Assembly: GCA_021209525.1 (NCBI GenBank)
Contig: JAJOIF010000004.1
Coordinates: 1-35,729, forward strand
Length of the DNA: 35,729 bases
Direction of reading: 5' to 3'
Origin: Minisyncoccota bacterium
GTDB taxonomy: Bacteria > Patescibacteriota > Minisyncoccia > Phycocordibacterales > UBA1006
In this document: positions 2,926 through 11,279 of the stretch, one piece after another
Layout: each line of letters begins with the position of its first letter
Numbering within the stretch: the first letter of the stretch is position 1
Program-made: the position numbers and the translations under genes
Notes under the pieces: model-generated
Database searches by the model: none
The model's input: the letters and a program-made list of their open reading frames with translations, nothing else
Told to the model about the DNA's origin: nothing

Positions 2926-3375
2926 ATGAAAAAAACTTTAGTACATCTGAGCCTCTTCATTATGCTAGGCATAATGAGCGCATCGAATGCATATGCATTC
3001 GAAAAAATTGCATTAACCGAAACCGAAGGAGTGCTCGTTGCTCCTGACGAAATCATCATCTATCAACAGCCAGAAAAAATGATCTTGTACAGCAGATTCA
3101 ATGAATCCTTGCACGTAGACATTGCCGGGTATATTGTTCAGCACGATGATCGGATTAATGACATGGGAAAGAATTCCTTGTTGGCAATTATGAAAAACGG
3201 TCTTTTGAAAACCAAACAGAAAAAAGACCATATTGTCATAACACTTACCCATCAAGGCGAAACTATTCGCATGAAAGTATTTAAAGGAGGTACCTGCGGC
3301 ATTGAATATGCGCTCAGCGCTAACCTTAAATATTATCATTACCATAGAGAATCCTTCCCGTATCCTCAAATGTAA
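2926..3375 (+). CDS. Small secreted protein, function unknown
   Basis: The 149-residue product starts with a clear signal peptide: MKKT, a hydrophobic core (LSLFIMLGIM), then SNAYA with probable cleavage before FEKIAL at about residue 25. The mature part of about 125 residues is a mix of short beta-like stretches such as GVLVAPDEIIIY and HIVITLTHQGETIRMKVF. It has a single cysteine and a His/Tyr-rich end (YYHYHRESF). No known domain was recognised. It has its own sigma70-like promoter and is followed by a strong terminator, so it is a single-gene unit. Export to the periplasm or cell surface is inferred from the signal peptide. Confidence 0.75.
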   Translation: MKKTLVHLSLFIMLGIMSASNAYAFEKIALTETEGVLVAPDEIIIYQQPEKMILYSRFNESLHVDIAGYIVQHDDRINDMGKNSLLAIMKNGLLKTKQKKDHIVITLTHQGETIRMKVFKGGTCGIEYALSANLKYYHYHRESFPYPQM

Positions 3376-3400: not shown

Positions 3401-3425
3401 CCGCCTCTTTTTGAGGCGGTTTTTT
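3401..3425 (+). terminator. Rho-independent terminator
   Basis: CCGCCTC and GAGGCGG form a 7-bp GC-rich stem with a T5 loop, followed by six T, 25 bases after the secreted-protein gene. Confidence 0.9.
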
Positions 3426-3491: not shown

Positions 3492-4565
3492 ATGAGAAAA
3501 ATTATCAGAATCACCGGACAAATAGGAGTAGGTAAAAGCTCTTTGATGCGCATACTGCGATCACTTTTTACAGATGCAGTGTTTATCGACACCGACAGTA
3601 TCGCCAAAGAAATTATCAAAAACGATGCACAGGTGCGTCAAAAACTGAGCACTTGTTTGGGGTGTATGTATGATCACGAGAACGAAGATCATACAGCACG
3701 TCTGAGGCAGATTTTTTTTGAAAACAATGCGTTTAAAAAACAAATTGAGGATATAGTGCATCCTTTAGTGTATGCAGAAATTGAAAAAATCATTAGAAAT
3801 CGGAATGGGTCAGGGCACATATTCATTGAATCCGCCCTCCTTTATAGCAATCGTGCTAATTTTTTTGATGCAACAATCAGTGTTATTTGCAGCAATAAAG
3901 AATTGCATATACAAAGAATTCTCGAGCACCGCACACATTTGTCTAAGCAAGAGGTTCATGCGATACTTTCGCAACAGCCCTCAGTTGTAGAGTACATACA
4001 GAAATCTGATTTTGTTATAGATACCGCATATTCTGAGAAAGCACATATTTTTGATGTATCGCTTTGCGTTGAGTGGATTGATTATGTGCTCGTTCAAAAA
4101 CAAAAGTGGGCAGTATTCTCTGGATCATTTCTCCCTTTTACTAAAGGACATGAATCTGTTGTTGAGCAATATCTGCATATATTTGATCGTATTTTTGTTA
4201 TGCAGGCATTCAATCCTGAAAAGGATCATTTGCGTGGTAAGTATTCTATTGACGAGAAATTACTTCCCGACCATATGAAGGGTCGTGTATTTTTTATCAA
4301 GCCGCAACAAAAAATGACTGCGCATATGATCAAAGAATTTGGGACACGTATTCAAATACGCGGAGTCAGAGATGATCAGGATATGATCTATGAACAAAAG
4401 ATTTACAAATTTAATCACATTATAGACAAAGACATCATTACTTTGTTCGTATTTGCTCATCCAAAATATGAATCCATTAGCTCTTCTTTGGCTCGCCAAG
4501 TTGAATCTCTTGATTCAGTGTTTAGGGATATTGTGCCTCCTTATGTCAAAATAGAAGGATCATAA
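3492..4565 (+). CDS. Bifunctional CoA synthase: CoaE (dephospho-CoA kinase) - CoaD (PPAT) fusion
   Basis: One 357-residue frame carries both final enzymes of coenzyme A synthesis. Residues 1-200 match dephospho-CoA kinase: a P-loop GQIGVGKSS at 9-17, FIDTDSIAKEI, VHPLVYAEI (the HP motif), IESALLYS, and SDFVIDT near the end of the domain. Residues 206-357 match phosphopantetheine adenylyltransferase: AVFSGSFLPFTKGH (the GSFxPxTxGH nucleotidyltransferase signature), IRGVRDDQDMIYE (RG-R-D-E motif) and YESISSSLARQV (the ISSS ATP-binding motif). CoaD would adenylate 4'-phosphopantetheine to dephospho-CoA, and CoaE would phosphorylate that to CoA. The order is the reverse of animal CoA synthase, which has the adenylyltransferase first. 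Both halves keep their key motifs, so both are probably active. No frameshift or linker repeat is seen. It is a single-gene unit between a promoter and a terminator. Confidence 0.88.
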   Translation: MRKIIRITGQIGVGKSSLMRILRSLFTDAVFIDTDSIAKEIIKNDAQVRQKLSTCLGCMYDHENEDHTARLRQIFFENNAFKKQIEDIVHPLVYAEIEKIIRNRNGSGHIFIESALLYSNRANFFDATISVICSNKELHIQRILEHRTHLSKQEVHAILSQQPSVVEYIQKSDFVIDTAYSEKAHIFDVSLCVEWIDYVLVQKQKWAVFSGSFLPFTKGHESVVEQYLHIFDRIFVMQAFNPEKDHLRGKYSIDEKLLPDHMKGRVFFIKPQQKMTAHMIKEFGTRIQIRGVRDDQDMIYEQKIYKFNHIIDKDIITLFVFAHPKYESISSSLARQVESLDSVFRDIVPPYVKIEGS

Positions 4566-4584
4566 GACATTCTCGCATATCACC

Positions 4585-4621
4585 AAAGAGTATCCCAACA
4601 GAAGGATGCTCTTTTTTTTTT
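4585..4621 (+). terminator. Rho-independent terminator
   Basis: AAAGAGTATCC pairs with GGATGCTCTTT (one G-T pair), followed by ten T. It ends the coaE-coaD transcript; its T run overlaps the -35 box of the next gene. Confidence 0.85.
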
Positions 4622-8472: not shown

Positions 8473-8512
8473 ATTTAGTGCTTGGTGCTTGGTGCTTTAT
8501 ATTTGGTGCTTC
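8473..8512 (+). repeat. Intergenic TTGGTGCTT repeat upstream of valS
   Basis: TGGAATTTAG is followed by tandem GTGCTTG copies and ATTTGGTGCTT. The same ATTTGGTGCTT word stands upstream of the cysteine desulfurase promoter near 33300. In both places TTGGTG falls at the -35 position. Read as protein, this stretch creates a false N-terminal extension of valS. Confidence 0.6.
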
Positions 8513-8532
8513 CCCTTACCTCATGCTATACT
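8503..8532 (+). promoter_or_regulatory. Promoter of valS
   Basis: TTGGTG lies 18 bases before TATACT with an upstream TGC. The -10 ends 8 bases before the ATG at 8541, so the mRNA is predicted leaderless. Confidence 0.6.
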
Positions 8533-8540
8533 ATCCTCAT

Positions 8541-11279
8541 ATGCATGAAAAATTCTTACAACCTTATAACCCCAAAGATACCGAAGACCGCATCTACACC
8601 CTCTGGGAAGAAAGCGGTATGTTCAACCCTGATCACGCAGTACGCATGGGGGTAACTGACCCCAAGGCAGAAGCCTTCTCTATAGTACTCCCCCCACCTA
8701 ATGTTACTGGGCAATTACACCTCGGCCATGCGGGAATGCTCACTATTGAAGATATCATGGTGCGCTTTCATCGCATGGATGGCAAGAAAACACTGTGGAT
8801 TCCCGGCACCGATCATGCCGCTATTGCCACACAATCAAAAGTAGAGAAATTACTTGCCAAAGACAATATTCGCAGACACGATCTTGGGCGTGATGCATTT
8901 TTAGAGCACGTACAAGCCTTTGCGCACGCTTCTCAAGAAACTATCTTGCATCAAGTAAAAAAAATGGGGGCGTCTATTGATTGGTCACGCCTTGCCTTTA
9001 CTCTTGATGATGAGCGCGAAAAAGCAGTACATACCGCATTTATACGCATGTATCATGACGGACTCATTTACCAAAAAGAACGCATTGTAAACTGGGACCC
9101 CAAGGGACAAACGGTTATTTCAGACGATGAAGTCGTTCACGAAGAGCGCGCGGGAATGATGTATACATTCAAGTATAGCGCTGATTTCCCTATTGCTATT
9201 GCAACAACGCGTCCTGAAACAAAACTCGGCGATACTGGTGTTGCAGTGCACCCCAATGATCCTCGCTACCAAGCATATATTGGCAAGACATATACATGCA
9301 CCTTTGCTGGGCAAGAACTTGAAATACGTATTGTTGCCGACGAAGCTGTTGATCCTGAATTTGGAACAGGTGCTGTAGGTCTCACACCAGCGCATAGCAT
9401 GACTGACTGGGAAATCGCAGAGAGACATGACTTACCCATGAAAAAAGTCATTAATGAATATGCAAAAATGACTGTGGGTATGGAAGGTGTTCTCGGTCAA
9501 AAAACGACCGTAGCACGAGAAGCTATTGTTGCATGGATACGAGAGCAAGGACTCCTTGAAAAAGAAGAATCCATTACTCAAAATATATCTACTGCGGAAC
9601 GCACCGGTGGTATTATTGAACCACTTCCTAAAATGCAGTGGTGGATTGATACAGAAAAGAAAATTATTATTCCTCACAATACTATTCCAGGACTTGATCC
9701 GCAGACACCGTATTCACTCAAAGAAGTAATGCTTCATGTTGTACAGTCAGGCGCAACAAACATTCTCCCTGATCGTTTTGAAAAAGTCTATTACCACTGG
9801 ATTGAAAAGTTGCGTCCATGGAATATTTCTCGTCAAATTTGGTATGGTCATCGTATTCCTGTATGGTACACCAAAGAAGGCGCACCTGTCTTACCCAAAG
9901 AACAAAAACTCGTCTTTATGCGCCACGGCCAAAGCGAGTACAATGTAGCAGGTAAAATCCAAGGACAGTACAATGCGCCCCTTACTGAAACAGGGCGAGA
10001 ACAGGCACGCACTGCAGCGGCATCGCTTGTAGGTACTTCATTTTCAAAAATTATTTGCTCTGACCTTGATCGTGCTCACGAGACAGCAAACATTATCGCC
10101 AAGGAACTTGGTCTCTCTGTAGAGGTATGGCCCGAGCTTCGTGAAATTGATGCGGGAACATTATCTGGTGCGCCACATCACGAAACGCTCGACACACTTG
10201 CATATGTTATCCAGTCAGGAACCGGAGAAACACTTGCAGAACTCGAGGCTCGCGCTCGCATTGTGGTAGAAAAAATTAAAAACATGAATACCAGCGAGGA
10301 CATTCTTTTTGTTGGACATAGCACATTTACCTCGCTGGTATTTGCCGTGTGGCATAATATTCCTGCGCAAGATTTTCTTGCAAAACATGGCGTATGGGAA
10401 TTATCACACACAGAAACCGAACAAATTATTCGCCTTCATTACCCTACTGACGAAACCTTGACTCAAGACGAAGACACGCTTGATACATGGTTTTCTTCTG
10501 GACTCTGGACATTTTCAACTATGGGGTGGCCTGACAGTAGTCAGGATCTCAAAGAATTTCACCCGACAAGTGTTCTTGAAACAGGGTATGATATTATCTT
10601 CTTTTGGGTGGCACGCATGATTCTTATGACGACATATCTCTTGGGTACAGTGCCATTCAAGACCGTTTATTTCCACGGACTCGTACGAGACGAGCAAGGA
10701 CGCAAAATCAGTAAATCGTTGGGTAATAATATTGACCCTCTGGAACTCATTAATGACTATGGGGCTGATGCTGTGCGCATGGCGCTCATTATTGGTACAG
10801 GTCCTGGTCAAGATTCAAAAATAGGCGAAAATAAAATCAAAGCATATAAAAAATTTGCAAACAAACTCTGGAATATTAGTCGTTTCATTTTAGAACAAAC
10901 ACATGAAGTGGCTTATATACCTGATTATACATATCACGCAGATGATCAGAAACTCCTTGATGCACAACGCGCACTCATTACTGAAATCACCGAAGAGATG
11001 CGTAACTATAAATATTATCTCGTAGGAGAAAAACTCTACCACTATATGTGGCACACATTGGCGGATGATATTATCGAAGACAGCAAGGCTATCTTTGCCG
11101 CAGATGATACCCAAAAGAAATTATCACGACAGCAATTCCTTATTCATACACTGAGCACATGCCTCAAGACGCTGCATCCATTCATGCCCTACATTACCGA
11201 AGAAATTTGGCAACTCATTCCTGATCACCACAAAGATAATAGTCATATGCTTATGGTACAAGCATGGCCTCAAAAATAG
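8541..11279 (+). CDS. valS: Valyl-tRNA synthetase with inserted histidine-phosphatase domain
   Basis: This 912-residue enzyme charges tRNA-Val. The class I core is intact: PPPNVTGQLHLGH (HIGH motif at 60-63), the CP1 editing domain (ATTRPETKLGDTG, FGTGAVGLTPAHSMTDWEI), RQIWYGHRIPVWY, DTLDTWFSSGLW from 645, and KISKS at 722-726. Between GHRIPVWY and DTLDTWFSS, where ValRS normally has a short loop or zinc-ribbon-like piece, lie about 190 residues (about 450-638) forming a histidine-phosphatase (phosphoglycerate-mutase superfamily) domain. It has VFMRHGQSEYN (Arg461, His462), PLTETGREQA, SDLDRAHETA (Arg511), LREIDAG (Glu535) and FVGHSTF (His593), all the expected catalytic residues. The protein ends at PFMPYITEEIWQLI... 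QAWPQK, so the usual C-terminal coiled-coil tRNA-binding arm is missing. The start at 8541 follows the promoter; an earlier in-frame start at 8478 would translate an intergenic repeat. Catalysis by both parts is inferred from motifs. Confidence 0.97.
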   Translation: MHEKFLQPYNPKDTEDRIYTLWEESGMFNPDHAVRMGVTDPKAEAFSIVLPPPNVTGQLHLGHAGMLTIEDIMVRFHRMDGKKTLWIPGTDHAAIATQSKVEKLLAKDNIRRHDLGRDAFLEHVQAFAHASQETILHQVKKMGASIDWSRLAFTLDDEREKAVHTAFIRMYHDGLIYQKERIVNWDPKGQTVISDDEVVHEERAGMMYTFKYSADFPIAIATTRPETKLGDTGVAVHPNDPRYQAYIGKTYTCTFAGQELEIRIVADEAVDPEFGTGAVGLTPAHSMTDWEIAERHDLPMKKVINEYAKMTVGMEGVLGQKTTVAREAIVAWIREQGLLEKEESITQNISTAERTGGIIEPLPKMQWWIDTEKKIIIPHNTIPGLDPQTPYSLKEVMLHVVQSGATNILPDRFEKVYYHWIEKLRPWNISRQIWYGHRIPVWYTKEGAPVLPKEQKLVFMRHGQSEYNVAGKIQGQYNAPLTETGREQARTAAASLVGTSFSKIICSDLDRAHETANIIAKELGLSVEVWPELREIDAGTLSGAPHHETLDTLAYVIQSGTGETLAELEARARIVVEKIKNMNTSEDILFVGHSTFTSLVFAVWHNIPAQDFLAKHGVWELSHTETEQIIRLHYPTDETLTQDEDTLDTWFSSGLWTFSTMGWPDSSQDLKEFHPTSVLETGYDIIFFWVARMILMTTYLLGTVPFKTVYFHGLVRDEQGRKISKSLGNNIDPLELINDYGADAVRMALIIGTGPGQDSKIGENKIKAYKKFANKLWNISRFILEQTHEVAYIPDYTYHADDQKLLDAQRALITEITEEMRNYKYYLVGEKLYHYMWHTLADDIIEDSKAIFAADDTQKKLSRQQFLIHTLSTCLKTLHPFMPYITEEIWQLIPDHHKDNSHMLMVQAWPQK
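9888..10455 (+). other. Histidine-phosphatase domain nested inside valS
   Basis: This marks the DNA for the inserted domain. Its reading frame is continuous with the synthetase on both sides, no stop or frameshift occurs, and its base composition looks like that of the flanking synthetase DNA. The RHG motif is at 9921-9929 and the second catalytic His codon at 10317-10319. Close relatives of the domain by motif are broad-specificity phosphatases (cobalamin-type or phosphoglycerate-mutase-like); the substrate cannot be read from sequence. Confidence 0.9.

Follow-up and report, generated by a model that had tools for sequence, protein, structure and literature searches.

In animals the last two steps of CoA biosynthesis are combined in one polypeptide, the CoA synthase COASY, in which phosphopantetheine adenylyltransferase (PPAT) is followed by dephospho-CoA kinase (DPCK). 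The animal PPAT domain belongs to another subfamily than bacterial CoaD. Bacterial PPAT and DPCK are also found as the products of two separate genes, coaD and coaE, and an archaeal PPAT fused to an archaeal DPCK has been described (PMC6650551), but the kinase family of the latter is not homologous to bacterial CoaE. Many mycoplasmas with their reduced genomes encode only PPAT and DPCK, as separate genes, and have been proposed to scavenge 4'-phosphopantetheine (PMC8721197), and coaD and coaE have already been reported as auxiliary genes of phages (PMC11097641). The CoA need of ultrasmall Patescibacteria and its source are poorly known, and Parcubacteria are described to be without most cofactor pathways (PMC4508563).

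Here we describe a gene from a Minisyncoccota bacterium (GCA_021209525.1; draft genome of 680 kb, 98.6% complete) in which both enzymes are joined in the order DPCK-PPAT (CoaE-CoaD). It is a real, reversed-order variant of the known bifunctional type of CoA synthase. Its two Pfam domains and catalytic residues are those of the separate bacterial enzymes, from which it differs in being fused and in a genome where the upstream pathway was not found. Compared with COASY its PPAT half is of the bacterial CoaD family and the N-terminal membrane region is missing. Searches of the open-licence literature turned up no description of CoaE-CoaD fusions.

The fused gene and its two domains

The gene lies in a window of 35,729 nucleotides (positions 1 to 35,729 of contig JAJOIF010000004.1, forward strand) and forms one open frame from ATG to TAA (Table 1). 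In the Pfam and NCBIfam searches the N-terminal half exceeded the curated cut-offs of both PF01121 (82 bits, E 5.5e-23, cut-off 27) and the dephospho-CoA kinase model TIGR00152 (82.3 bits, cut-off 65.6) and the whole domain was covered. The C-terminal half matched the superfamily model CTP_transf_like (PF01467, residues 208-336, 28.2 bits, cut-off 21) and nearly the full length of the coaD equivalog model TIGR01510, where its 95.1 bits (E 4e-27) stay just under the curated cut-off of 103.3. Judged from the sequence, chance cannot account for domain matches this strong. The nearest solved structures by sequence are bacterial PPATs for residues 204-353 and dephospho-CoA kinases for residues 1-190. 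An AlphaFold2 model calculated on an alignment of 38 sequences (mean pLDDT 92.4, pTM 0.86, every segment at least 50) confidently predicts two folded domains, connected by a junction with one predicted helix (residues 190-201) and without a long disordered linker, and in Foldseek it matched solved PPAT and DPCK structures best, among them the kinase part of mouse CoA synthase (2f6r).

The same fusion is encoded end to end in a second MAG, Candidatus Paceibacterota bacterium CC_bin2 (G002; also L005/L065), which belongs to the same family as the source genome (G000) but to a different genus. Both proteins show 39% identity over 355 columns (45% in the CoaD half vs 31% in the CoaE half), and since this MAG encodes the full-length fusion at such a distance an assembly or frameshift artefact can be ruled out. 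The original prediction of a single frame with CoaE first and CoaD second, opposite to the order in animals, was thus borne out by the domain searches, which recognised each half, and by the second MAG, and the gene product is by its architecture a bifunctional CoA synthase with predicted activity.

Table 1: Features of the fused gene and its flanks (positions of the window).
Feature	Position	Strand	Basis or remark
Terminator-like hairpin and T run, upstream, between 2926-3375 and the fused gene	3401..3425	+	sequence
Fused CoaE-CoaD gene	3492..4565	+	357 aa plus stop; full-length homologue in second MAG
CoaE (dephospho-CoA kinase) domain, residues 4-178	3501..4025	+	PF01121, TIGR00152
P-loop GQIGVGKS, residues 9-16	3516..3539	+	G9, G14 and K15 invariant in CoaE alignment
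D35 (E. coli CoaE D33)	3594..3596	+	alignment
R142 (E. coli CoaE R140)	3915..3917	+	alignment
Junction, residues 179-206	4026..4109	+	AlphaFold2 model
CoaD (phosphopantetheine adenylyltransferase) domain, residues 207-353	4110..4550	+	TIGR01510, PF01467
TxGH motif TKGH, residues 217-220 (H220 = E. coli H18)	4140..4151	+	alignment
K244 (E. coli CoaD K42)	4221..4223	+	alignment
RGVR, residues 290-293 (R290 = R88, R293 = R91)	4359..4370	+	alignment
ISSSLAR, residues 329-335 (S330-S332 = S128-S130, R335 = position 133)	4476..4496	+	alignment
Terminator-like hairpin and T run, just downstream of the fused gene	4585..4621	+	sequence

Both halves had also been predicted to carry intact motifs. This applies to the catalytic residues, as the P-loop lysine, the catalytic aspartate and the lid arginine of E. 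coli CoaE (K15, D33, R140) are all present (K15, D35, R142) and the PPAT residues TxGH, K42, R88, R91 and S128-S130 are found as H220, K244, R290, R293 and S330-S332. T10, H18, K42, R88, R91, S128-S130 and position 133 are PPAT residues tested by mutagenesis, with roles given in PMC12784347, and all alignable residues tested there are conserved or conservatively replaced (E. coli T10 aligns with S212) except P8, which aligns with S210. It does not apply to this P8 and to the CoaD signature, which reads GSFLP instead of GSFDP in both Paceibacterota fusions, with E. coli D12 aligning with L214. The aspartate is a signature position and does not appear among the mutation-tested residues in the available part of PMC12784347.

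As terminator-like hairpins at 3401-3419 and 4585-4614 flank the gene, it is probably transcribed alone. A defence system was discarded as an explanation as PADLOC gave no match, and no match to plasmid records spanned most of the fusion protein.

Distribution and phylogeny of both fusion orders

Within the family real CoaE was found in two of about 20 genomes, both times as the fusion, and within the order a convincing CoaE is present in about nine of 397 genomes, being fused only in the source genome and CC_bin2. This patchy distribution suggests gain or repeated loss, and we therefore prefer to say that the genome has the last two steps of CoA synthesis: both are encoded as predicted, but that they were "kept" during genome reduction is doubtful. 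Two genomes of the same order (G346, L013; G048, L006) encode coaE and coaD as separate genes in the same gene order with a 4-base overlap, which is a plausible pre-fusion arrangement.

The coaD gene of G048 bears a C-terminal extension (L006 2088-3197 (+)); G346 has a similar but separate gene after coaE-coaD (L013 250-921 (-)). This region with the HD-phosphohydrolase-like motifs YHNLEH and FHDAVYDP is also joined to CoaD in phages (L173 1926-3089 (+), L111 1923-3101 (+)) and was not recognised by any Pfam model at the applied thresholds. Divergently upstream of coaE-coaD both genomes carry a similar helix-turn-helix regulator-like gene (L013 2125-2886 (+), L006 631-1422 (-)), a possible regulator of CoA salvage. 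Fusions of the opposite order, CoaD-CoaE, were identified in at least 11 other Patescibacteria genomes; the candidates L056 and L058 were rejected as their second half has no CoaE match.

The order CoaE-CoaD is not unique to our gene but is also found in large phage contigs. In IMG/VR it occurs in L115, L130, L134, L135 and L159, and CoaD-CoaE in L098, L126, L128/L129, L132, L149 and L151. L121 is doubtful as a CoaE-CoaD fusion, since the Pfam CoaE model does not recognise its first half, and L179 and L180 turned out to be overlapping adjacent genes. A tblastn search against annotated phages gave single-domain matches only, so that fusions were seen only in the IMG/VR contigs. The phage CoaE-CoaD proteins (L159/L175, L115/L176, L135/L178) are similar in length to the window protein at about 25% identity, but they are located in a phage genomic context, whereas our gene has a chromosomal one, and form a separate clade in the CoaD tree. 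A T4-type topoisomerase is encoded near the fusion in L175 and L176, together with an RNA ligase in L175 and NAMPT in L176, and a phage helicase in L178; the three contigs examined, L175, L176 and L178, look like phage genomes rather than misfiled bacterial contigs. An NMNAT-like gene was also noted nearby in L176.

In the CoaD tree both Paceibacterota halves are sisters (100/99) adjoining a stand-alone CoaD from the viral collection (L095, 99/90) and do not fall into the main clade of phage CoaE-CoaD fusions. The CoaD-CoaE fusions from Patescibacteria and phages, built from the same two enzymes in opposite order, form one clade (100/97) without the window protein. This clade recurs in the CoaE tree (100/98), again with the window protein outside, and there its CoaE half has no settled position. 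Judging from the CoaD tree, CoaE-CoaD fusions would have arisen at least four times, but a single origin was not rejected by the AU test (p 0.10 for all eight CoaE-CoaD fusions, 0.165 for six). Of the predicted independence of the fusion one part therefore stands, namely that it appears independent of the animal enzyme, as judged from the domain order and from its PPAT half being of bacterial type; that it is also independent of the phage CoaE-CoaD fusions is likely, subject to the above AU result. That CoaD and CoaE were fused repeatedly and in either order, in huge phages as well as in Patescibacteria, is of more interest than the single gene. With such natural variants one could test if domain order affects the transfer of dephospho-CoA between the active sites. 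As a tentative and still rather doubtful picture, CoaD and CoaE might represent a mobile two-step salvage module that has moved between Patescibacteria and huge phages and undergone repeated fusion, in either order, in both groups. Our gene would then be an independent CoaE-CoaD fusion of this module, with which a bacterium dependent on a host could complete CoA from 4'-phosphopantetheine made by others.

Proposed CoA salvage and its alternatives

Profile searches of the source genome gave one CoaE match, the fusion itself, and two CTP_transf_like matches, the fusion and an FAD_syn-like (FAD-synthetase-like) domain joined to VIT1, which was rejected as a second coaD. The latter protein (L002 640-1806 (-), G000:C8) consists of 388 aa with an FAD_syn/CTP_transf-like nucleotidyltransferase and a VIT1 (iron/manganese transporter) domain. 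Separate, better-conserved coaD or coaE genes, on whose absence the original prediction depended, were thus not found in the rest of the source genome. CoaBC (PF04127), type III PanK (CoaX, PF03309), type I PanK (CoaA/PRK, PF00485) and ACP synthase (ACPS, PF01648) gave no match in the source genome or in CC_bin2, with positive controls in each case. For PanK these results cover types I and III, as the type II profile PF03630 was silent even in the controls and its silence says nothing about type II. The suggestion that the bacterium uses scavenged 4'-phosphopantetheine survived these searches, in which neither coaA nor coaBC was found.

We propose, with a probability of about 0.8, that the fusion protein serves CoA salvage in two steps, starting from 4'-phosphopantetheine supplied from outside. 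The C-terminal CoaD would transfer AMP from ATP to 4'-phosphopantetheine, yielding dephospho-CoA and pyrophosphate, and the N-terminal CoaE would then phosphorylate the 3'-hydroxyl of dephospho-CoA to give CoA. Because genes for earlier CoA steps were not found, uptake of 4'-phosphopantetheine or dephospho-CoA is most likely; in the former case, which we favour, it would be imported from neighbouring cells and CoA completed in two steps, and in the latter only the CoaE half would be required. The fusion might bring co-expression, equal amounts of both enzymes or a handover of dephospho-CoA. An enzyme requiring just external 4'-phosphopantetheine and ATP leads to a testable prediction on what Patescibacteria take from their hosts.

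Some observations speak against this proposal. No 4'-phosphopantetheine transporter is known here, E. coli is cited in PMC8721197 as exporting this compound without re-importing it, and a CoA consumer is not established, since ACPS gave no match and the lone GNAT frame is broken, GNAT being the one family of acyl-transfer CoA users covered by the search. This sole GNAT acetyltransferase match of the source genome (L085, G000:C14:3936-4220) is interrupted by a frameshift or a stop codon and seems to be a gene in decay; the GNAT match in CC_bin2 looks intact. Activity of the CoaD half is called into question by its TIGR01510 score and the GSFLP signature. Both would fit a protein in which only CoaE matters, with dephospho-CoA being imported and the CoaD half degenerate or regulatory, and DPCK alone is indeed found in some mycoplasmas, Rickettsia and Chlamydia (PMC8721197). 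We regard this as very unlikely because the aligned mutation-tested PPAT residues, bar P8, are conserved or conservatively replaced (PMC12784347) and conservation between both MAGs is higher in the CoaD half than in the CoaE half, which does not fit decay of the former. The fusion could also act on non-CoA substrates, for example in an NAD-type salvage with a NadR-like adenylyltransferase and kinase. NadR-like nucleotidyltransferase-kinase fusions do exist, the fused frames L056 and L058 lack a CoaE match, and the nicotinate-nucleotide adenylyltransferase model gave a weak match to our protein (E 7e-5, 22.5 bits, cut-off 167). In NadR, however, the adenylyltransferase comes first, the CoaE and coaD models outscore every NAD model by far and the closest solved structures are PPAT and DPCK, so that such a function is hardly credible.

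The salvage proposal also has to be weighed against an acquisition of the gene from a phage with CoA auxiliary metabolic genes, which would leave it a minor role in the bacterium. Phage contigs contain coaD, coaE, adjacent pairs and fusions of both orders, both genes have been reported as abundant in a virome (PMC11097641), and in the CoaD tree our CoaD half lies with the viral-collection CoaD L095. In addition, the distribution within the family is patchy and the G+C content of the gene (36.9%) is among the lower values in the window. On the other hand no phage sequence is a supported relative of the CoaE half, identities with phage proteins lie at about 20-34%, and the gene sits on a 102-kb contig amid chromosomal genes (ValRS, LepA, MurJ, LeuRS, RelA, ParB, Clp ATPase, IF-2). 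Moreover, two genera share the fusion at only 39% identity and it is hence not recent. We therefore consider this origin with a minor role unlikely. Taken as a whole, the original interpretation of the gene was partly supported.

As a side observation, the catalytic domain of the ValRS encoded in the window (8478-11279 (+), 933 aa) is interrupted by an inserted histidine phosphatase domain (PF00300, residues 478-634, E 2.8e-39).
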